Part shown: positions 24,317 through 58,643 of the stretch, in pieces | Numbering within the stretch: position 1 is the stretch's first letter | Layout of the letters: every line of letters starts with the position of its first letter | NCBI GenBank assembly: GCA_013151255.1 | Contig: JAADIQ010000117.1 | Span: forward strand, 1 to 64,000 | Direction: 5' to 3' | Length of the DNA stretch: 64,000 nucleotides | Origin: Alphaproteobacteria bacterium | GTDB lineage: Bacteria; Pseudomonadota; Alphaproteobacteria; Caulobacterales; Parvularculaceae | Translations under genes and position numbers: made by a program | Notes under the pieces: model-generated | Database searches by the model: none | What the model saw: the letters and a program-made list of their open reading frames with translations, nothing else | Told to the model about the DNA's origin: nothing

Positions 24317-25468
24317 ATGGCGCCGCAATGTTTTTACGAAGTCCTGGGTGTTGAACGCGGCGCAGACGGCGCGGCGATCAAATCCGCCTTCCGTAAGCGC
24401 GCCATGATATACCATCCGGACCGCAATGCGGATAATCCGGAGGCGGAGCAAAAATTTAAACAGCTTGGCGAGGCATACGAAATCCTCTCCGACGGTCAAA
24501 AACGCGCCGCCTATGACCGCTTTGGCCATGCCGCGTTTGAAAATGGCGGTGGCCGGGCAAGCAACGGGTTTGGCGGCGCCGCTGGCGCAACGGCCGGTTT
24601 CTCCGATATTTTCGACGACATATTTTCCGAATTCATGGGCGGTCAGCGCGCCGGCCGACGCGCCGGTCCCGGCCGTGGCGCAGACCTTAAATATAATCTC
24701 GAGATCAGCCTCGAAGACGCCTTTGGCGGCAAAAAGGCTGAAATCAGCGTGCCAGGCTCGGTCTCTTGCGATACTTGCGAAGGCTCTGGCGCGGCGCCTG
24801 GTTCCGGGCCGGTGGTGTGCAAAACCTGCAAAGGCGCCGGGCGGGTCCGCATTCAGCAGGGGTTTTTCACCATCGAGCGCACCTGCCCGCATTGCAACGG
24901 CGAGGGGCGGATGATCTCTGATCCGTGCTCGGACTGTTCCGGCCAGGGCCGTGTGCGCCGTCAGCGCGAGCTGTCGGTTGATATTCCGGCCGGGATTGAA
25001 GATGGCACCCGCATCCGCCTTTCCGGCGAGGGCGAGGCCGGCCCGCGCGGCGGACCGGAGGGGGATTTATACATCTTTGTCGGCGTTAAAGAACACGATC
25101 TGTTCGAACGCGACGGCCCCGATCTTTATTGTGCGTTCCCGATCCCGATGACCACCGCCGCGCTTGGCGGCGAGTTTGAGACCCCGACCATCGATGGCGG
25201 CCGGGTTAAAATTTCCGTGCCCGAAGGCGCCCAGACCGGCAAGCGCTTCCGCGTGCGCGGGCGCGGCATGACGCAACTAAATTCAAAAGCCCGCGGTGAT
25301 CTCTATGTCGAGGTTCAGGTCGAAACCCCGACCGGCCTCAATCCCGAGCAGAAACAATTGCTCAAGCAATTCTGCGAAGCCGGCGGCGGCGAAGACTGCT
25401 GCCCGCAAAGCCAGAACTTCTTCCAGCGGGCGAGGAACTTTTGGGGTGATGTGACTGAGGGCCGGTAA
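24317..25468 (+). CDS. dnaJ: Chaperone DnaJ (Hsp40)
   Basis: 383 residues, type I DnaJ. The J domain (1-70) has the YHPDRN motif with HPD, a G/F-rich region follows ([14 protein letters not shown]), and four zinc-finger repeats are all intact: [24 protein letters not shown] and CSDCSGQG. The substrate-binding beta domains and dimerisation region complete the protein. It delivers clients to DnaK and stimulates its ATPase. An AGGGGG ribosome site precedes ATG 24317. Confidence 0.98.
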
Positions 25469-43832: not shown

Positions 43833-43883
<51 letters not shown>

Positions 43884-44040: not shown

Positions 44041-45363
44041 ATGCCACGGAAGAGACTCACTGACACTGGAATTGAAAAGATGTCGCCGCCTAGGGCTGGG
44101 CGAATGGAGATCGGCGATTCAATCGTACGTGGTCTCGGGCTGCGCGTGAGCCCGGCAGGGAGCAAGTCGTTCTCTGTCGTCTATAAGGTTCCCGGAGAAG
44201 GCGGCGTGAACGGAAGTGGGATGCCGCTGGTGGGCAGGCAGCATCGCGTGACGCTCGGCCAATGGCCTGTCGTCAGCGTCGCGGAGGCCAGACAACGAGC
44301 GATGAAGATGCTGGCGGAGGTCTCAAAGGGCGAAGATCCACGCACCCGGCTCAGACGAGAGAATCTAGTGCGCCACGCAAACACTGTCGCCGTCGTGATA
44401 GAGCGATTCATTGACCTCGAGGCCAAGCCCAATGTGAAGAGTTGGCGCAACGCCGACAGCGTACTCAGGCTCCATGTTGTGTCGCGGTGGGGCGACCGGC
44501 CGATCCGCGACATCAGGCGGGCGGAGGTTCACGAGCTGTTGGACGAGATTGTTGAATCGGGACGAGTTGGCGCGGCCCGCGAAGTGAGAAAACACCTGTC
44601 TCGTCTCTTCAACTGGGCACTGGACAGGGAGATAGTCGCAACAAACCCGGTGCACGGGCTCAAGCGGCGCGATCTGCAGCAGAACTTGGACGCAGGGCGC
44701 GCGCTGACCGACGATGAGGTGCGCTACGTCTGGTACGCGGCGGGCGAGATGGGATATCCCTTCGGCGATTTGCATCGCCTTCTGCTTCTAACTGGCCAGC
44801 GCCGGTGCGAGTGGGCCAATGCCACTTGGGGAGAGATCAATTCGGTGGAGCGGACGTTGGAAATCCCTGCAGGACGTTTCAAGGGTGGGCGCGACCATGT
44901 TGTGCCGCTGGCCCATGACGTCTGGAGCATCCTCGAAGGGCTTCCACGTTGGAACTGTGGAGACTACCTGTTTTCGACTACCGGAGGGCGCATCCCGGTA
45001 TCCGGATTTTCAAAGGCCAAGGCCCGGCTGGACGAGAAGATGCAGGCGCGCATGGGCGAGGAGGAAGAATTCGTCCCGTTTCGTGGGCACGACTTGCGTG
45101 TGACCTGCGAGACTAGGCTGGCCAACCTTGGCTTCCCGCAGGAGATCCGTGATGCCGTTCTAGGGCATGCCCGTCCCGGTCTTCAGAAAGTGTATAACAA
45201 ACACGACTATCTTGAGGAGAAGAGCGCTGCGCTTATGCAGTACGCAGCGCATTTGATGGAGATAATCAGGCTGCAACCAGCAGAGCGCGCGAGCAATAGT
45301 CAATTTTCACAGCATGCCAGCAATATCGAAAAATGTACTTTCTATAGTCATCGCCAATTGTAA
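44041..45363 (+). CDS. int: Tyrosine-type integrase of the mobile element
   Basis: 440 residues with the layout of tRNA-targeting satellite/island integrases. The N-terminal DUF4102-like arm-binding domain (about 1-95: GDSIVRGLGLRVSPAGSKSF, VTLGQWPVVSVAEARQRA) is followed by a SAM-like core-binding domain (about 105-195). The catalytic domain has Arg in LLLTGQRRCEW, His-x-x-Arg in RGHDLRVTCETRL, His in LGHARPGLQK and nucleophile Tyr in VYNKHDY. It sits 158 bases inside the left attachment site with a GGAGG ribosome site. Its 3' end overlaps the next frame by 50 bases. Confidence 0.93.
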   Translation: MPRKRLTDTGIEKMSPPRAGRMEIGDSIVRGLGLRVSPAGSKSFSVVYKVPGEGGVNGSGMPLVGRQHRVTLGQWPVVSVAEARQRAMKMLAEVSKGEDPRTRLRRENLVRHANTVAVVIERFIDLEAKPNVKSWRNADSVLRLHVVSRWGDRPIRDIRRAEVHELLDEIVESGRVGAAREVRKHLSRLFNWALDREIVATNPVHGLKRRDLQQNLDAGRALTDDEVRYVWYAAGEMGYPFGDLHRLLLLTGQRRCEWANATWGEINSVERTLEIPAGRFKGGRDHVVPLAHDVWSILEGLPRWNCGDYLFSTTGGRIPVSGFSKAKARLDEKMQARMGEEEEFVPFRGHDLRVTCETRLANLGFPQEIRDAVLGHARPGLQKVYNKHDYLEEKSAALMQYAAHLMEIIRLQPAERASNSQFSQHASNIEKCTFYSHRQL

Positions 45364-46094
45364 GCGGTTGCTAGATGACGCGCGCCTACTTCTCTATAGC
45401 GGCAGTTCCGGCGCTGCGTTGGCTTTGGCCATCCTCGCATTTGAAGAGGCTGGAAAAGGGTACCACATAGAACTGTCAGTTAAGAAAACCAAATGGACGC
45501 CTAGTTGGCACCAATTTCGACAAGTTACAGCGTCATTCGTACTCGTCGCATCCGTTTACCAAAAGCATGGGTTGCCGCCCCCAGAACTAACACCGCGAAT
45601 GCAGGAACTGCTCAAAGAAGGCACCGAGGGCGTAAAAACATTTGCGGAATTTGCTGCTAAGCCGCCACCGGAAGAATTTCGTCAATTAGCTGGCGATGTT
45701 ATTTTAGCCAATCTCCGTGAGCTTGACGGAGATTCTTTGAAAATTGCGTTAGTGGAATTTCGATGGGTTCGAATTTTTTTTTATGAACGCCATCCGCGGT
45801 CAGATCGAGGTCTTTCGACAACGCGGGATGTACGTTGACATCGATGGCGACCAAGTGCTTTCAGACCCGGGAACAGTATTGCAACAAGATGCCTACTATT
45901 GGATTCGTGTGGCTGAGCGAACTCTGCGAATTCTTCAATTGGGTGATTTTATAGCCCCTTATGGGGAATTGGCGGCATTTTTAGAAACATTGCCTAAACC
46001 TATTCCAGAGGGAGATGCGCTGTTGAATTTGCTACAGAGCAAAGGGGCCGTAGGCGAAATTCTTGCTGATGAAATCAGAAAGTACGGAAGATGA
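45314..46094 (+). pseudogene. AbiV-family abortive infection protein, interrupted in a T9 run
   Basis: The first frame (45314-45838) shows the AbiV start: NCKRLLDDARLLLYSGSSGAA and LAILAFEEAGKGYHIEL (the FEExGK signature). The second frame (45783-46094) continues with AIRGQIEVFRQRGMYVDIDG, the usual RGLYVD segment. The frames join if the run of nine T at 45774-45782 had eight (RIFFMNAIRG), giving about 259 residues. Homopolymer error, natural slippage, or on/off phase variation are all possible. AbiV proteins are HEPN-like and block phage growth in some hosts. The GTT-TTT region lies within the coding part, so translation is likely to be truncated unless slippage occurs. Confidence 0.8.
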
Positions 46095-47361: not shown

Positions 47362-48555
47362 ATGGCCAGACGTACGAGTGGAAACAGACTCAACAGACCA
47401 GAGGTAGCCGTCGTCAAAGCGATGATCGCCTCGGGCGACTACAGAGACCAAGACATTCAGGCGTACTTCACGCGGCCCACCAGAACGGTTAACCACGCGC
47501 GCATAGCCGAAATTCGACATGGCCAAAGGCATCACGCGGTTGCCGCAGCGTCAGAAGAAGAACTCAGAGAGTTTTTGTCCTGCTGGCCCAATTACGATGC
47601 GGAAACAAGCCTCAGCCCTATAGACGACGAGCTCCTCGTAAAGGCCCGTGAGGCAATGATCGCCGCAGTGCACACGTTTAACGGTGCGGGCGCAACTTTC
47701 AGGTCTGAGCTGTTCATCGTTACGGCCATAATCGCATGGACTTACTTGCTGCACGCGTGGTTCAAGCGCGAGGGAATTGACTATCGTCATAGAAGGGGCG
47801 GAGAGGTTGTTCGAACCAGAGAGGGGGCGGAAAAATATTTCGAGCTCGGCGCTTGCCTTCGCCACGGACGGTCTCCTGCCTCTGCAGGTGTGTGCCGCAA
47901 CATAGAATTCTTGTTAAAGCTGCGACACGAAATTGAGCACCGCTCCACCAACAAAATTGATGATGCTCTCAGCGCGAAGTTGCAGGCTTGCTGCATCAAC
48001 TTCAATGATGCGATTAAGGAGTGGTTCGGAGATCATCTTGGCCTGGAACGTCGCTTGCCGATCGCCCTGCAATTCGTGACTTTTAACACGGCTCAACGTT
48101 CTGCGCTGAAGAAGGCGACAAGACTGCCGGAGCACATTGAAGCATCCATTGACTCATTTGAGCGAGCGCTGTCCGAAGAACAGTACAAGGACACGGCCTA
48201 CCGCTATCGGGTAGCATTTGTGCCTATCGTAAAACAACGTGCATCAGCCGCCGACACGTCCATTGAATTCATACGTGGAGGTTCTGAAGAGGCAGAGGCG
48301 GTCAACCGCGTTCTTCTCAAAGAGGTTGAGCGAAAGAGATACACAGCCTCCGAGGTGGTTCGGTTTATGCGAGCAAGTGGCTATCCACATTTTGGTATGG
48401 GGGACCACACGAAACTCTGGCAGTCGCTGGGTGCGAAAGCGGAGGGAAAGCAATTTGGTGGTGTCGGAGACTATCGCGGCCATTGGATTTGGTATGAGCC
48501 TTGGATCGATCGCGTCAGGGCTCACTGTGAAGAGCAAGGGGACCGGTATAGGTAA
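47362..48555 (+). CDS. DUF3644-family protein with HEPN-like motif, element cargo
   Basis: 397 residues. ARIAEIRHGQRH near the N-terminus is typical of DUF3644 proteins, which often start with a small HTH. In the middle, FLLKLRHEIEHRSTNK provides R-x4-H (RHEIEH), the active-site motif of HEPN ribonucleases. The remainder is helical, with a C-terminal region GDYRGHWIWYEPW of unknown role. HEPN domains cut RNA in many toxin and abortive-infection systems; whether this one does is not shown. It follows the metalloprotease gene and precedes a hairpin at 48633. Confidence 0.75.
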   Translation: MARRTSGNRLNRPEVAVVKAMIASGDYRDQDIQAYFTRPTRTVNHARIAEIRHGQRHHAVAAASEEELREFLSCWPNYDAETSLSPIDDELLVKAREAMIAAVHTFNGAGATFRSELFIVTAIIAWTYLLHAWFKREGIDYRHRRGGEVVRTREGAEKYFELGACLRHGRSPASAGVCRNIEFLLKLRHEIEHRSTNKIDDALSAKLQACCINFNDAIKEWFGDHLGLERRLPIALQFVTFNTAQRSALKKATRLPEHIEASIDSFERALSEEQYKDTAYRYRVAFVPIVKQRASAADTSIEFIRGGSEEAEAVNRVLLKEVERKRYTASEVVRFMRASGYPHFGMGDHTKLWQSLGAKAEGKQFGGVGDYRGHWIWYEPWIDRVRAHCEEQGDRYR

Positions 48556-51992: not shown

Positions 51993-52077
51993 GTCTTATG
52001 TAGAGCCGTCTCAGCTCATGGTCTGAAAAGCCGGTGAACGCCTCGCGCCACACCCGCCGCTCAATCTCGCTCTTCAT
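51898..52077 (-). CDS. Short basic phage-type protein
   Basis: 59 residues: MKSEIERRVWREAFTGF leads to HELRRLYIRRARLHG and a basic tail. It overlaps the terminase-like gene by 17 bases and the coiled-coil gene, as phage operons often do. It has no recognisable domain and might be a small DNA- or head-associated protein. It is a true gene mainly by context, so confidence is low. Confidence 0.4.
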   Translation of the reverse strand: MKSEIERRVWREAFTGFSDHELRRLYIRRARLHGTQREKNIARCFEKGESRRGLATAAR

Positions 52078-52522
52078 CGTCAAGCTCCCGACGCATCTGT
52101 CCGCGCAACTGGGCAGCAAGCTGCCGCACGGCGCGATCAATAGCGGAGTCCTCGTGACGAACGCTGGCGTCCAATTTAAAGTTCTCGCGGTAGCGCTCGG
52201 GGATCAGCCCGCGCGCCATCAGTTCGAGCAGACGATCAGAGTACTTCCGAACCTCGCCGACCTGCTCGCCCTGGTAGAAGACGGGCTCGTTCCAGCCCTC
52301 CACGGCGCGGCGGTGAAGTTCGCGCTCAACGGCTCCGCGCGCAATCTCCTGCACCTCGTCCCATGCATCGGCGAAGCCGGGATTTCTATCTCGCTCGTCG
52401 CGGAAGGTCTTCATCGCGCCGTGCTGCGAGCCGGGCGATGCTGCTCGCGCAGCCCAGGTGACTACGCCGTGGCGTTCCAACTCCGTGAGGAATATCTGTT
52501 TGCGATCTTCGGTCAGTTTCAT
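52061..52522 (-). CDS. Terminase small subunit-like protein
   Basis: 153 residues. The opening MKLTEDRKQIFLTELERHG and VVTWAARAASPGSQHGAMKTF form an HTH of the type used by phage small terminases to recognise pac or cos DNA. DAWDEVQEIARGAVERELHRR is the conserved central helix, and YSDRLLELMARGLIPERYREN the oligomer region. In satellites a lone small terminase redirects helper packaging to satellite DNA. No large subunit is seen here, which is why satellite packaging is favoured over autonomous packaging. Confidence 0.75.
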   Translation of the reverse strand: MKLTEDRKQIFLTELERHGVVTWAARAASPGSQHGAMKTFRDERDRNPGFADAWDEVQEIARGAVERELHRRAVEGWNEPVFYQGEQVGEVRKYSDRLLELMARGLIPERYRENFKLDASVRHEDSAIDRAVRQLAAQLRGQMRRELDDEERD

Positions 52523-53027: not shown

Positions 53028-53573
53028 TTAGTCGGCATCTGTTGCCGCGCTATCGTGTTGGGGGAGCTGTGGGGGAGCCTCGACCTCCACGAAGCCTTTC
53101 TCCATATCCCAAGTGACATCGGAGCGGCGTCCGCCTGAGGCTATATATTCACCTAGCGTCATGCCATCGCGGTAGAGGCGCCATCTTGCGGCGGAGCGAC
53201 CCTTCTTGGGATTGCGTGAGCAGCGGACGCGGATTATGGAAGTCGATGGGAGCGGCCGGTGCCGATGACGGCCCGATGGTCTCCGCTTGGGAAGCGCGGA
53301 AATTTCCACCATGGCGGCCCAAAGCTCGGCAGGCGTGGCGGTGTCACGGGAGAGGATGAGCCGCGTCACGTTGGCTCGCGTCACATGGCCCAACGCGGCC
53401 ACGTCATCGGCTGAACGAACCTCGCGCTCTTCATCTATGTAGAATACGGTTTCCACACGGATATTATGGCCTGAGAGCGGACTGCCCAATAGAGCTGATC
53501 GCTGACCACGATGACTTTTCCTCGCGCGAGGGGCGGGCGGTGTGGGCGGAGGCGGGGTGACGGCCCGGCCCAA
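53028..53573 (-). CDS. Hypothetical protein with resolvase-like HTH segment
   Basis: 181 residues as drawn. The first 39 residues are Pro/Arg-rich (MGRAVTPPPPTPPAP) and may not be translated; a GTG at 53456 (VETVFYIDEEREV) is an alternative start. DVAALGHVTRANVTRLI resembles the C-terminal helix-turn-helix of resolvase-type proteins, and later RDGMTLGEYIASGGRRSDVTWDMEKGFVEV is a pattern seen in phage proteins of unknown role. Codon use is strongly GC-biased. Confidence 0.5.
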   Translation of the reverse strand: MGRAVTPPPPTPPAPRARKSHRGQRSALLGSPLSGHNIRVETVFYIDEEREVRSADDVAALGHVTRANVTRLILSRDTATPAELWAAMVEISALPKRRPSGRHRHRPLPSTSIIRVRCSRNPKKGRSAARWRLYRDGMTLGEYIASGGRRSDVTWDMEKGFVEVEAPPQLPQHDSAATDAD

Positions 53574-53583
53574 AAACGGGGCG

Positions 53584-53853
53584 GGGTCCGGGGGGTCCGT
53601 GTACCATGCAATTGTGCGCTTCTTACTCTTAATAACTTGATATCTGGCCTAGGTTGGACAGAACACGGACCCCCCGGACCCTTGGGAGAATTCCCTTCGT
53701 TCCCCGTGACTTGGGCGCGACCATCCCCGGACCCACCTCAGCCCCCGGCCGGACCCCGAGGTGCTAGACCCGGACCCCGGCCTGGCACTGAGGTGGGGTT
53801 TCGCGCACAGCGCTGCGTTGCGAAGGGCGGGGTCCCGGTTTGCGCCCGGACCC
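53584..53853. other. CGGACCC repeat cluster, candidate replication origin of the element
   Basis: Eight copies of the 7-mer CGGACCC or its complement occur within 270 bases, at 53584-53590(-), 53593-53599(-), 53666-53672, 53675-53681, 53728-53734, 53750-53756, 53771-53777 and 53847-53853. The first four form a perfect 19-base inverted repeat (53584-53602 against 53663-53681) around a 60-base AT-richer centre. It lies immediately after the D5/P4-type helicase gene. P4-like satellites carry such repeats at ori and crr sites bound by their primase-helicase, so this is a strong origin candidate. No promoter or gene is seen here. Confidence 0.7.
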
Positions 53854-55194
53854 TTAGAATGGAATCTCGTCACCATTGGCAACATATCGAAGCTTCACTC
53901 CGCGATAGACTGGTGGCTCTCGGCGGCCGTTCGCCTTGTCGATCCATGCTCCCTTGGCGGCCCGGATCGGGTAGTTGGCTTCTAGCTTCTGTGTCAGCTT
54001 GCTCTTTGCCATCGGGCGTGAGCCATTGTCTTCGCACCAGTTACGGTATGCGGCATAGAATGTGTCCTTGTAGCAAGTGTCATTTTGAACAATCTCACAC
54101 TTCTCGTCCAGAAATCCCGTGAGAGGGGAAGCTGCGGCCCTAGTCGCAGACAGCACGCGCTCACCCGAAGCAGGCTGCCGGATCATGCCGCCTTCTTCTT
54201 GGAGCTTGCGCCAACCGCTCATCGCCCACTTGAGGATTGCCCCGCGCTCAGCGCGAAGATGCTCGCGCAGCCCAAGGTCTTCCTTGCCGTAGAAGCTGCG
54301 CGTCATCGGAAGCACAATCAGTCGTTTCAAAAGCGCACCCGTGTCGTCGGCCAGCTCTAACGGCTCATTTGTCTGGATGATGATCCGAGTGCTGAGAACA
54401 CCTTGCCAGGCCTCCTTGAATTTGCGGTTGACCGTGAAGTGGTCCTCGCCGGTGATCCGCAATAATACGTCCGTGATTGCGGCTGGATTTGTTCCGCGCC
54501 CGTCAAGTCGCGCCTCTGACAGAAGCATCATGAGACGGCCAATGGCGGGCTGAAGGGCGAAGTCGCTGGTGATGCTCTGCAGCGAAGGCGAGCAGACGTT
54601 TTCCCGTCCGATCACCTCGGCCATGACATCGCCGATTGTCCCCTTCCCAGAGCGCGGTGGGCCCATCAGTTGAAACATGCGCTGCATACTTGTATCGGGC
54701 GTGAGTAGATAGCCGAAGATGCGTTGCAAGGCCGCGATGCACTCAGGATCTTCGCTCCATATGCTGTCGAGAAAGCGCAGCCACTCCGTCGGGTCATCCG
54801 CGTTCGGATCGTAGTCGTAGTCAACCGCATTTATGTTGACGAAGCGCGGCGTGTGTTGATGGGTTTTGCCTGTTTCCAAATCAACAAGGCCGTTCTGGCA
54901 AGAAAGCAAATTCGTTGCAATTGGCTCGCCGTCCCATGCGGGAAGGTTGCCCAGCCGACGTGCGCGAAGTGAGATGGCGTGGTATTCTATGCCTCTGATG
55001 ATCGATGCATGCGGCGTTTTCCCCTTCGCGACCAGCCAGCTTGCAATGTCGGCCTGCAGCAGGTCGCGATGTTCCTCCGTCCATTTTGGGCCCGTCCATT
55101 GCAGCCACTCGCCCTGATGCCGGATGAGCGTGCGCTCGGTGACATACTGTCGGGCGAGGTCCCATGTGCTCGGCTTCTCTTGCTCAGCCATCAA
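53854..55194 (-). CDS. D5/P4-type phage primase-helicase C-terminal ATPase
   Basis: 446 residues. The D5_N region (about 30-150, NLLSCQNGLVDLETGKTH) precedes the helicase core with Walker A MGPPRSGKGTIGDV (about 183-196), Walker B MMLLSEARLDG, sensor motif IIIQTNEPLEL and arginine-rich LLKRLIVLPMTR. The C-terminus has a DUF5906-like winged part. The TIGR01613 superfamily loads and unwinds DNA for satellite or phage replication. Its stop adjoins the repeat cluster. It overlaps the primase-like gene by 11 bases, forming a split version of the P4 alpha protein. Confidence 0.85.
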   Translation of the reverse strand: MMAEQEKPSTWDLARQYVTERTLIRHQGEWLQWTGPKWTEEHRDLLQADIASWLVAKGKTPHASIIRGIEYHAISLRARRLGNLPAWDGEPIATNLLSCQNGLVDLETGKTHQHTPRFVNINAVDYDYDPNADDPTEWLRFLDSIWSEDPECIAALQRIFGYLLTPDTSMQRMFQLMGPPRSGKGTIGDVMAEVIGRENVCSPSLQSITSDFALQPAIGRLMMLLSEARLDGRGTNPAAITDVLLRITGEDHFTVNRKFKEAWQGVLSTRIIIQTNEPLELADDTGALLKRLIVLPMTRSFYGKEDLGLREHLRAERGAILKWAMSGWRKLQEEGGMIRQPASGERVLSATRAAASPLTGFLDEKCEIVQNDTCYKDTFYAAYRNWCEDNGSRPMAKSKLTQKLEANYPIRAAKGAWIDKANGRREPPVYRGVKLRYVANGDEIPF

Positions 55195-56218
55195 TGGACT
55201 CCTTTGCTAGAAAGGAGGCTATCTGGCGCTCGACATGAAGGGTGGGATTCCGGCGGGGAACGTATCGCCCCCTGATCTTTGCCCAGTGCGCGCGATGCGA
55301 CACCTTGTCGATTTCTTGTTGTCCCGCTGGCAGCAGGAGGCAGTTGCGAACGACGCTCAGCGGAGCAATGCCATCACGAACGCAAGCGCCAATGAACGCC
55401 CACTCGTGTTCGGAGCGTGACGGATAGGCCTCTCCAGTCTCGATGTCTCGGACGCAGGAGTTCAGCAGGCGGAGCGCCCACGGTGGCAACACTTCCCAAA
55501 GAGCGTGGAGGGAAAACTCAAATTCGTCGTCGAAATCCACCGGCGCGGCCACAACACTCGGGGTAGGTTTGATGCGCCCGGCCTCGGCCAGCGGCAGTCG
55601 TGCGCCCGCATCGGCGAATAAGACCTCGCACATGCGGTCGTCGCGCTCGGCCTTTCGGTTCCGCGTTCCCGGCAAACGAAATAGGTGCTCGACCGAATGA
55701 GTAGAGTCCGGAGACAGGTCAGCAAACTCTGATCTCAGCCAGGAGCCGATGGCCCGTGCATCTTCGGTGTCACTTGTTGGGTTGTCAAAGCGCCAATGGG
55801 CCTGCCACCCGCCGCCTGTGAACGCGACATAGAAGGGTGCCCAGTCGAGACGGTTCGTAAGCTCTTCGAAAATGTCAGAATCAGGATCATCAATGTCCAG
55901 CCATGCACCAACGCAGACTTTTATATCGTTTTCGCAGGCCCGTTTACGCAGAGGGCTGCGCGGCTGGTTGCCCATGTAGTATATGCACCGCCCAGCATTG
56001 TTGTTCGCACAGGCGCGCTCGACTGCGAGGTCGATGTCGGCGAATGTGCATGTTCTCCAGTCGCCTGCGCGGGACAGATGAAAGGGGCCGCCGAATAGCG
56101 TAAAGAAGTCTCGAACCTTTTCCGGGTCGGCGTTCAGCGCTAAATTTGAAGCTGCACCTAGCAGACTTTCCTTGGATTGGCCCTCGTTAGCAGCGGGGGC
56201 CTCTTCTCTATAGGTCAT
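55184..56218 (-). CDS. Primase-like protein (RepB/AEP-type) of the element
   Basis: 344 residues. The start at 56218 overlaps the HTH gene stop (ATGA). A short Gly/Ser region leads to FFTLFGGPFHLSRAGDW, then VGAWLDIDDPDSDIFEELT with the Asp-x-Asp metal pair of archaeo-eukaryotic-type primases, and AFTGGGWQAHWRFDNP and HSVEHLFRLPGTRN with the nucleotide-binding His/Arg. The C-terminal third may be a primase-helicase linker (SRSEHEWAFIGACVRDG). It would make primers for replication from the neighbouring repeat cluster, with the helicase encoded next. Confidence 0.75.
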   Translation of the reverse strand: MTYREEAPAANEGQSKESLLGAASNLALNADPEKVRDFFTLFGGPFHLSRAGDWRTCTFADIDLAVERACANNNAGRCIYYMGNQPRSPLRKRACENDIKVCVGAWLDIDDPDSDIFEELTNRLDWAPFYVAFTGGGWQAHWRFDNPTSDTEDARAIGSWLRSEFADLSPDSTHSVEHLFRLPGTRNRKAERDDRMCEVLFADAGARLPLAEAGRIKPTPSVVAAPVDFDDEFEFSLHALWEVLPPWALRLLNSCVRDIETGEAYPSRSEHEWAFIGACVRDGIAPLSVVRNCLLLPAGQQEIDKVSHRAHWAKIRGRYVPRRNPTLHVERQIASFLAKESIDG

Positions 56219-56478
56219 TGCGCGCCTCCCCGTCGCTTCTCCAGCCACGCCAAGACGTCTTCGCGGCGGTAGCGCACATTGCGGCCGATTTTGAAGTGGG
56301 TCGGCTGGTCGAGGTGACCCTTGGTGCGGCCAATTTCAAAGAAGGGGACTGATAGCCCGGTCAGGTCGCTGACCTGTGCGGTTGTCAGAAAGCCTCCGCC
56401 GTCACCGGACAGAAGCTTAGGTAGTGTGCGCCTGATCTCATCGCGGACGCACGCGCGGATGTGTTGGTCGATACTCAT
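56215..56478 (-). CDS. Small helix-turn-helix DNA-binding protein (excisionase/AlpA-like)
   Basis: 87 residues. After a polar helix, FLTTAQVSDLTGLSVPFFE and HFKIGRNVRYRREDVLAWLEK form the MerR-type wHTH with the RY-x-R-x-DVxxWL signature of excisionase-like proteins. In satellites such small proteins control excision or replication. It is the second regulatory gene beside the AlpA-like one and starts the primase-helicase operon, so it may be its repressor or activator. Confidence 0.8.
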   Translation of the reverse strand: MSIDQHIRACVRDEIRRTLPKLLSGDGGGFLTTAQVSDLTGLSVPFFEIGRTKGHLDQPTHFKIGRNVRYRREDVLAWLEKRRGGAQ

Positions 56479-56725: not shown

Positions 56726-56923
56726 TTAGGCCGCTTTAAAGGGGCATGTTCGCGCGGCGACCCGCTGCTCAATCCATTCATCAATCTCGTCCTCAACCCA
56801 TCCGACGCGAGCTGGGCCCAGCCGCACCTGACGGGGGAACTCTCCGGCGCGCATGAGCCGGTAGATGTGGTTTTTGGAATAGACGACGCGCTTCCGTACT
56901 TCGAGGAGGTCGATGATGCGCAT
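56726..56923 (-). CDS. alpA: AlpA-family transcriptional regulator
   Basis: 65 residues. IIDLLEVRKRVVYSKNHIYRLMRAGEFPRQVRLGP carries the AlpA motif S-x-x-x-IYR-x-(M/I)-x-x-GxFP-x-x-(V/I)-x-(L/I)G, with VGWVEDEIDEWIEQR as the second half, WxxxEIxxWI. It is a small DNA-binding activator that in PICIs and P4-type elements turns on integrase or replication genes. It is the first minus-strand gene, divergent from the Panacea gene. Confidence 0.9.
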   Translation of the reverse strand: MRIIDLLEVRKRVVYSKNHIYRLMRAGEFPRQVRLGPARVGWVEDEIDEWIEQRVAARTCPFKAA

Positions 56924-57155: not shown

Positions 57156-57602
57156 TTGGAAGCTGAACTCACCCAGCGCCAAAAAGTTGTTCTCGGAGCC
57201 CTAGCTGCTCGACCCGGCAGCAAATTTGCGCCGGTACAGGCGCAAAAACTTTTCTTCTTGATTGATGAAAACATTGCCAATCAGATTGGCGGCAGACAAT
57301 TTAGCTTTGAAGCTTATGACTACGGCCCTTTCGACAAGGAAGTCTATCATGAGCTGGAAGCGTTGAAGCAAGCCGAACTAGTCGAAATCCAAAACCCACA
57401 TCTTCGCGGTGAGCGACGATATACTCTTACGCCTGAAGGACAGGCTGTGGGTCAGGCATTTGCTGAGACCTTGGCGCCAAATATGCGCGACTACATTGGG
57501 CGCATATCAGAGTGGGTTCGGTCACTTACTTTCGCTGAACTCGTCGGCTCTATCTATAAAGCTTACCCCGAGATGAAAGCGAACAGCATCTTCAAGGGTT
57601 AA
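57156..57602 (+). CDS. Panacea-domain (SocA/DUF4065-like) protein
   Basis: 148 residues. Helical opening (LTQRQKVVLGALAARPGSK), then APVQAQKLFFLIDENIANQ and FEAYDYGPFDKEVYHELEAL, the SocA/Panacea signature with its YGPFxxxVYxxL. Panacea domains act as antitoxins that neutralise very diverse toxins, and as Clp-protease adaptors in the SocA case. It ends at a TAA whose bases overlap the convergent Ntn-hydrolase stop, so the pair is locked together. It lies between the satellite operon and the tRNA, a cargo position. Confidence 0.82.
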   Translation: MEAELTQRQKVVLGALAARPGSKFAPVQAQKLFFLIDENIANQIGGRQFSFEAYDYGPFDKEVYHELEALKQAELVEIQNPHLRGERRYTLTPEGQAVGQAFAETLAPNMRDYIGRISEWVRSLTFAELVGSIYKAYPEMKANSIFKG

Positions 57603-58384
57603 GGCTTCGGGACATCGGCTGCGTCTTCCTTCCCAAGAAGGACGTCCTTGAATCCAGCAAAATGAGCTGTCGCGTCAGAGACCATGTTCTCGAGTTCAGC
57701 TTGGTCATCATCGTTAAGTTTTCGCGCCATATGGCCATTTTTGGCCGGTTCCAGCACAGCCATCTTAATCGGCCCCTTAATACCGCCAGGATTCACATCG
57801 CAGGCATGCTTCAGCGCCCAGAGAGCGGTGAATTTACCACCCTGTAGATCTGGAGGCCCATCCTTCCAAAACACCTCACGAAACAGTGCTAGAAAAGGGT
57901 CAGTTATTGGCTGTCCACTCCCAGCTGACGCAAACCAGAGATGGTCCTTTGGGTCTTTTATTTCGGGTTGAAATGCTGGCGGCATCTGCACAGACGGATG
58001 CATAGCCCCTCTCGGTAGCTCGCAAAGAACTGGAGTTTTTGACTTCATGTCGTCGAAAGCCACAAAGGCAGCGTATTCGAGTATGTGTGGGTGAGTAGCA
58101 CTGAATTCTTCAAGGCCAGCACGAGCAAGCGTTTTGGCAAACTCAAGTCCATCCATATTTTTGAACGCGTTGGCATCCCACAGCTGCTTAATCTTCTCAG
58201 TGAACCGTTGGTGGTGCCCAACGTAACCTGTTCCGGCGATAATGATCTTGTCACCGATTATTTCGATCTTCCTGTCGGTCGGCTGCTCGATTGTACGAAT
58301 GTGATTGCCGTCACCAAAGGTAGCCGAGCTATCTGCGGCGACGACAACACCGTCCGTGCACCGAATTGCAACAATTGAAGTCAT
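57599..58384 (-). CDS. Proteasome-like Ntn hydrolase, element cargo
   Basis: 261 residues. It opens MTSIVAIRCTDGVVVAADSSATFG: Thr2 would be the nucleophile after Met removal, then the Asp of the VVVAADS-x-x-T motif and IEIIGDKIIIAGTGYVG with the conserved Lys33-like Lys and Gly47-like region. This is the proteasome beta/HslV/Anbu opening. The C-terminal third (about 160-250) has no close pattern. It may be a self-compartmentalised protease or a single-domain amidase. It is convergent with, and overlaps by four bases, the Panacea gene, and starts 180 bases before the right attachment site. Confidence 0.75.
   Translation of the reverse strand: MTSIVAIRCTDGVVVAADSSATFGDGNHIRTIEQPTDRKIEIIGDKIIIAGTGYVGHHQRFTEKIKQLWDANAFKNMDGLEFAKTLARAGLEEFSATHPHILEYAAFVAFDDMKSKTPVLCELPRGAMHPSVQMPPAFQPEIKDPKDHLWFASAGSGQPITDPFLALFREVFWKDGPPDLQGGKFTALWALKHACDVNPGGIKGPIKMAVLEPAKNGHMARKLNDDDQAELENMVSDATAHFAGFKDVLLGKEDAADVPKP

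Positions 58385-58563: not shown

Positions 58564-58643
<80 letters not shown>

Follow-up and report, generated by a model that had tools for sequence, protein, structure and literature searches.

A Repeat Array Adjoining the 3′ End of a D5-Type Helicase Gene

We found that an array of short repeats lying beside a helicase gene very probably serves an integrated PICI-like satellite as its replication origin (ori), a reading in which binding and replication are predicted from the sequence. The window, that is, the whole stretch of 64,000 nucleotides of alphaproteobacterial DNA that was analyzed, contains eight copies of CGGACCC inside positions 53584–53853, all of them exact, as a sequence-only reading of this DNA had counted. 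Two copies are on the minus strand (53584 and 53593) and six on the plus strand (53666, 53675, 53728, 53750, 53771, and 53847), and the window has just one further copy, at 24843. The array is directly 3′ of the gene for a D5-type helicase (53854–55194), where the same reading had placed it, and almost fills the gap from the helicase stop codon to the next open reading frame (ORF), which starts at 53573. Four of the copies make up a perfect 19-base inverted repeat with a 60-base center, which was likewise confirmed: the left arm (53584–53602, minus strand) and the right arm (53663–53681, plus strand) are reverse complements at 19 of 19 positions. Each arm holds two iterons at a step of 9 bp, and the inner sites are 73 bp apart. 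The core between the arms (53603–53662), a candidate melting region, has an A+T content of 58%, which is high for its surroundings (34% in the 400-nt flank 3′ of the helicase gene) yet modest. Three further iterons follow on the plus strand at 53728–53777, with steps of 22 and 21 bp, and the eighth (53847–53853, plus strand) abuts the helicase stop codon. A ninth site, at 53830, is a one-mismatch copy; in the island that carries the array, 40 places match CGGACCC with at most one mismatch, 9 of them in the array.

The abnormal feature is the clustering of CGGACCC and not its window-wide number, the total of 9 copies comparing with a mean of 9.12 in shuffled windows. The genome contains 233 copies (131 forward and 102 reverse) in 3,121,887 bases. 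When the genome-wide count suggested earlier was run, CGGACCC pairs separated by 0–30 bp were found at only four places in the 3.12 Mb, all within the array; this pattern excludes overlapping pairs, of which at least one is on contig C24 among the matches listed. The earlier claim that eight copies are improbable by chance was also upheld. None of 300 shuffles of the 400 nt contained eight copies of any 7-mer, and the Poisson probability of 8 CGGACCC copies in 264 bp is ~4e-19, for a motif picked after the fact. Shuffles were first-order Markov samples, except that those for the window motif count and for the terminator and promoter scan preserved dinucleotides.

The region 53584–53853 was the sole significant 7-mer cluster in the scan of the 14.85-kb stretch containing the island, and this result bears on an alternative that we consider unlikely, namely that the array is a crr-like accessory site, bound by the helicase and required in cis as in P4, while initiation occurs at a second site. 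Such an arrangement has a precedent in the P4 record, where crr ends 45 bp beyond the alpha gene and 4.5 kb separate it from the annotated ori. However, the same scan applied to P4 as a positive control recovered both of its known sites, crr and ori, whereas no second cluster was detected in the island and its one-mismatch copies of CGGACCC are sporadic, although an initiation site free of iterons would evade the scan. That the array acts behind the helicase gene as a terminator of transcription or as an autoregulatory operator is barely credible. One weak terminator-like match was found at 53681–53667, but shuffled sequences give 0.5, a 60-nt loop is untypical of terminators, the sites reach the stop codon, and no match to a sigma-70-type promoter was found in 53400–54000. 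Rfam models at gathering scores identified only tRNA.

A Satellite-Like Island at tRNA-Gly

The array is part of a 14.7-kb island inserted at tRNA-Gly and bounded by identical 51-bp direct repeats, the left one (att) at 43833–43883 and the right one at 58564–58614, which overlaps tRNA-Gly(gcc) at 58569–58643. A tyrosine integrase is encoded on the plus strand at 44041–45363 (Pfam PF13356/PF00589/PF22022; phrog_1, 3.6e-52), and the replication genes are on the minus strand, toward the opposite island end. Also on the minus strand are the genes of an HTH_17 protein (56215–56478, Pfam), an AlpA-family regulator (56726–56923; PF05930, 8.7e-16), and a terminase small subunit (TerS; 52061–52522; phrog_4044, 1.8e-32), the last ~1.1 kb from the array. 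Among the 18 island proteins scanned, a set that did not comprise the ORF at 45783–46094, no PHROGs match to capsid, portal, or tail families was obtained.

An element of this kind would presumably depend on a helper phage, and none was identified in the 92%-complete host assembly. In the host genome, phrog_4044 matched only the TerS of the island. The large terminase family phrog_2 had one match in the assembly (locus L238, on contig C9 of genome G000), located beside a portal-like ORF; on our reading this locus is a GTA-like cluster.

Two other genes of the island are candidates for defense-like cargo. An AbiV-like (HEPN) gene seems to be split into overlapping frames at 45314–45838 and 45783–46094, and a DUF3644/PDC-S19 gene is found at 47362–48555. 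A proteasome/HslV-like protein is encoded next to the attachment site (57599–58384), and beside its gene is that of a SocA/Panacea-like protein (57156–57602), with a Pfam match under the curated cut-off.

The Helicase and a Candidate Primase

The helicase gene, on the minus strand, encodes 446 aa with Pfam matches to D5_N, DUF5906, and Pox_D5, a C-terminal winged helix, and the end DEIPF. Its AlphaFold model (mean pLDDT 89.9) found its best match, and closest solved structure, in the SaPI5 primase-helicase 7ola (Foldseek E 5.8e-19), with a VIA Z of 31.6 over 387 aligned residues, an rmsd of 4.3 Å, and 18% identity; a profile HMM comparison with the SaPI5 primase-helicase gave E 3e-26. The predicted protein thus has the SF3 AAA+ core with D5_N and winged-helix domain of the SaPI Rep type. 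By sequence profile, its C-terminal part also matches chain 8zjr_M, RFX5 (E 4.4e-6), in line with a winged helix that would read DNA at the C-terminus of the helicase. A candidate primase is encoded by a separate gene just upstream (55184–56248, minus strand); its RepB_primase match (E 0.0079) is below the cut-off, and it aligns with the N-terminal portion of a fused protein from a Loktanella locus (L184) over 36 columns with 47% identity.

The DEIPF end of the helicase (53857–53871) resembles the C-terminal tail of SSB, which is DDDIPF. Residues 439–446, which include this end, have pLDDT below 50. A terminal PF was found in 11 of the 146 dereplicated helicases of the survey described below but, among the other mechanical ORFs of 150 aa or more at those loci, in 2 of 1386 (Fisher p 3e-10). 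The tail may interact with the host proteins that are the usual partners of SSB.

Repeats Recur 3′ of Related Helicase Genes

Scans of genome contigs and viral contigs with the single helicase sequence returned no relatives, and the survey was based on a search with alignment A1, from which the best 80 of 378 confirmed loci in genome contigs and the best 80 of 413 in viral contigs were used. The sample, made up of these better matches and of hits in 398 order genomes and 385 class genomes, is not random. It left out unclosed helicase frames, flanks shorter than 300 nt (350 nt in the inverted-repeat survey), and larger re-fetches (L027–L040 and L070–L073) of loci already counted, and every figure counts the window as one locus. 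An iteron cluster was considered significant if it was equaled in at most 1 of 300 shuffles.

Both kinds of signal were concentrated directly 3′ of the helicase gene. After dereplication at 60%, iteron clusters were detected in 34 of 97 3′ flanks, while they were found in 0 of 84 5′ flanks, 1 of 100 gene interiors, and 4 of 94 segments 400–800 nt downstream. When loci were dereplicated at 85% and the best of k = 6–8 was taken over 450 nt, the corresponding figures were 55 of 146 (3′), 2 of 123 (5′), and 1 of 146 (interiors). Inverted repeats with a score of at least 12 and a loop of 30–160 nt within 400 nt occurred in 70 of 146 3′ flanks, 5 of 122 5′ flanks, and 2 of 145 interiors. A cluster, an inverted repeat, or both were found at 84 of 146 dereplicated loci. 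The sequence-only reading had stated that related helicases without repeats would weaken the origin idea; the signal recurs at these 84 loci, but the other 62, including 8 of the 20 closest, had neither signal in the 400–450 nt tested. Allowing one mismatch in an 8-mer brought little gain, as 6 of the 91 3′ flanks lacking exact clusters became positive versus 2 of 75 5′ flanks. Upstream inverted repeats were found in L090, L105, L108, L110, and L011 and upstream clusters in L110, where GGTGACA is repeated eightfold, and L063; judging from these sequences, a few relatives, some of them phages, may have the site upstream of the helicase gene.

As another check that had been suggested, related elements were searched for their own repeats at the matching place, and some of the motifs were nearly CGGACCC: CCCGGAC five times in L154 (Sphingopyxis), CCCGGAC nine times in L184, and CCGGACC six times in L219. 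The earlier remark that CGGACCC was unfamiliar from described satellites has to be modified in that the motif is not isolated, with GGACC, CGGAC, or GACCG contained in the motifs of 20 of the 52 motif-bearing loci; otherwise the sequence varies between elements. Together with the clustering, these repeats of related helicases support the earlier proposal of a satellite replication origin. Both L154 and L184 have the gene order int, pri-rep, array, terS. In the Sphingopyxis island, genes for the small and large terminase subunits (9769–11653 of L154) were observed shortly beyond the array.

Geometry of the Sites and the Stem-Loop Alternative

At the surveyed loci, neighboring sites are usually 9–10 bp from each other. 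Same-strand neighbors no more than 25 bp apart had a step of 9 or 10 bp in 111 of 182 cases. The left arm contained an internal repeat of at least 5 nt in 56 of the 70 inverted-repeat loci, and in 51 of these 56 the offset was 9 or 10; in a control of 730 segments inside genes, 54 internal repeats were found, of which 20 had such an offset. The inner sites of the two arms were 64–123 bp apart in 54 of the 56 loci (36 and 41 bp in the remaining two), and the usual minimum of ~64 bp would leave space for two rings. Helical phasing between the arms was absent at every period tried (56 loci; Rayleigh p at least 0.33). In 49 of 70 loci the A+T content of the loop exceeded that of the whole 400 nt, with medians of 0.47 versus 0.41 (Wilcoxon p 8e-7).

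The inverted repeat might alternatively function by forming a cruciform or hairpin, a possibility raised for the archaeal plasmid pRN1, and the iterons would then be incidental. This idea draws on the published account of pRN1, which reports that replication needs a stem-loop 3′ of orf904 and that the integrity of this structure matters, and the authors describe the stem-loop as being without iteron structure (PMC4234260). We nevertheless regard the stem-loop origin as quite improbable for the window. Four of its eight sites are outside the stem, and a hairpin needs none of the 9–10 bp spacing seen between arm units in 51 of 56 relatives. Moreover, the arm of pRN1 too has two units: its inverted repeat, like that of the window located 3′ of the helicase gene, has an arm of 21 nt, in which two 6-nt units follow each other at a step of 9 bp, and a loop of 58 nt, compared with 60 nt in the window. 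In the exact-cluster test pRN1 was not significant.

Comparison with Known Replicons

Eight named records were examined. Origins of the PICI type 3′ of rep are already known, and the window array adds a new member to them. The article on these elements (PMC6092414) gives the PICI origin as the region immediately 3′ of rep, where two iteron sets flank an AT-rich region, and reports tests of the pri-rep-ori replicon of EcCICFT073. We located pri-rep of this element in the CFT073 record by means of c1499/c1500 (capsid and head-decoration, as named in that article) and the upstream int and HTH genes, and its 3′ flank was positive in the iteron test. Like EcCICFT073 and the Gram-negative PICIs, the window has an array directly 3′ of the (pri-)rep gene, with iteron sets around an A+T-richer core, and it shares with the Gram-negative PICIs an integrase with an attachment site and a regulator of the HTH/AlpA type. 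Virion genes are incomplete in PICIs, sometimes with terS present, and the 18 scanned island proteins, TerS among them, agree with this; EcCICFT073 itself has capsid-like genes, whereas none were found in that set. There are other differences. The iteron of EcCICFT073 is of the GGTAGA type rather than CGGACCC, and the window has its candidate primase and its helicase in two genes and belongs to an alphaproteobacterial host. PICIs have a primase and a Rep, which may be separate or fused, and of these the helicase of the window is clearly recognized, while its primase is a weak match. In addition, the int gene at the far end and on the opposite strand departs from the PICI map as drawn in PMC6092414 and from its rightward unidirectional transcription, while the gene order of L154 and L184 is that of the map. 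The array would place a PICI-style replicon in a satellite-like island of an alphaproteobacterium.

P4 resembles the window in having repeats directly 3′ of alpha, in both orientations and with 9-bp steps. Its crr was positive in the iteron test, and the type 1 repeats include steps of 9 bp, although the internal repeat in its best inverted repeat has an offset of 7, not 9, single copies being 9 bp apart. Unlike the window, P4 has a second annotated origin in addition to crr, both of them with type I iterons, a fused primase-helicase alpha protein, and the iteron GTGAACA. Of the P4-type framing given earlier, the location shared with crr is supported, but with a single array the window is better described as a PICI-like element with an iteron origin. 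The Streptomyces virginiae plasmid NZ_CP108186, from another phylum and with another iteron, was positive with 11 copies of CCCTGAA 3′ of its helicase gene, and it has the 9-bp arm step of the window and a 59-nt loop. Negative results were obtained in the iteron test, the sole test applied to them, for the phages 9NA, Vibrio 1.004.O, and Aeromonas KLEA5. BPP-1 had neither a significant array nor an inverted repeat in the two tests; a stem-loop has been proposed for the near-identical phage BIP-1 (PMC4234260).

A Proposed Mode of Initiation

If the array is the origin, as we consider very probable, replication would most likely proceed as follows. The integrase would first excise the island, after which the D5-type (SF3) helicase would use its C-terminal winged helix to bind the iterons in duplex form. 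The two 9-bp-phased iterons of each arm would nucleate one hexamer, and since the arms face each other, two oppositely oriented hexamers would assemble over the core, melt it, and move off both ways, so that replication would be bidirectional. The candidate primase encoded just upstream would prime synthesis, which the host replisome would extend, and the four outer iterons may add affinity or regulation.

The same layout may be of wider use. We use the term dyad for an arrangement in which each arm has two sites 9–10 bp from each other and the arms face across a core. We put forward, tentatively and with a little less than even confidence, that such an iteron-pair dyad directly 3′ of the helicase gene could serve D5/SF3 helicases whose winged helix is RFX-like as a general site for loading a double hexamer. 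It would be found in satellites, phages, and plasmids of bacteria as well as in plasmids of archaea, the “stem-loop” of pRN1 would be such a dyad, and residues of the winged helix would set the iteron in each case. Searches of the open-licence PMC literature found no survey of dyad geometry over D5-type helicases, nor any account of the pRN1 stem-loop as paired iterons, the searches not having been aimed at exactly the latter claim. The recurring layout may help explain how D5-type helicases find their start site. It also makes it possible to test how pRN1-type origins are recognized, by their stem-loop or by pairs of iterons in duplex form.

Which Protein Reads the Iterons

Across 52 loci, similarity of the motif followed similarity of the winged helix when the ATPase domain was corrected for (partial r 0.16, Mantel p 0.001), while the reverse test, with the ATPase domain corrected for the winged helix, gave 0.05 (p 0.18); L171, L221, and L018, which have low-complexity motifs, were dropped from this set. 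The correlation points weakly to the C-terminal winged helix as the reader of the iterons.

This relationship also bears on the possibility that the array is a packaging site (pac or cosB) bound not by the helicase but by the TerS of the island, which we think very improbable. The closeness of the TerS gene to the array could be taken in its favor, as could lambda cosB, which is credited with three TerS binding sites (PMC6092414). On the other hand, L154 and L184 have iterons like those of the window, yet their TerS proteins belong to phrog_309 and show no significant similarity to that of the window (E 3.5 and 28). The surveyed arrays adjoin the helicase gene and their motifs follow its winged helix, and P4 crr and the EcCICFT073 ori, which have a matching layout, are known replication sites. 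Relatives of the island TerS in viral contigs amounted to three weak loci.

The 84 of 146 loci with a signal offer many natural helicase-iteron pairs for measuring the recognition rule of D5-type winged helices, here proposed as readers of the origin. A glutamine at one wing position was observed in four of six loci with GTGAC-type motifs (L079, L169, L175, and L006) versus none of 20 with GGACC-type motifs (Fisher p 0.001). This residue may determine specificity, a suggestion made post hoc, and it is also present in L156 (CGCGTGC) and L067 (CGGGACA).
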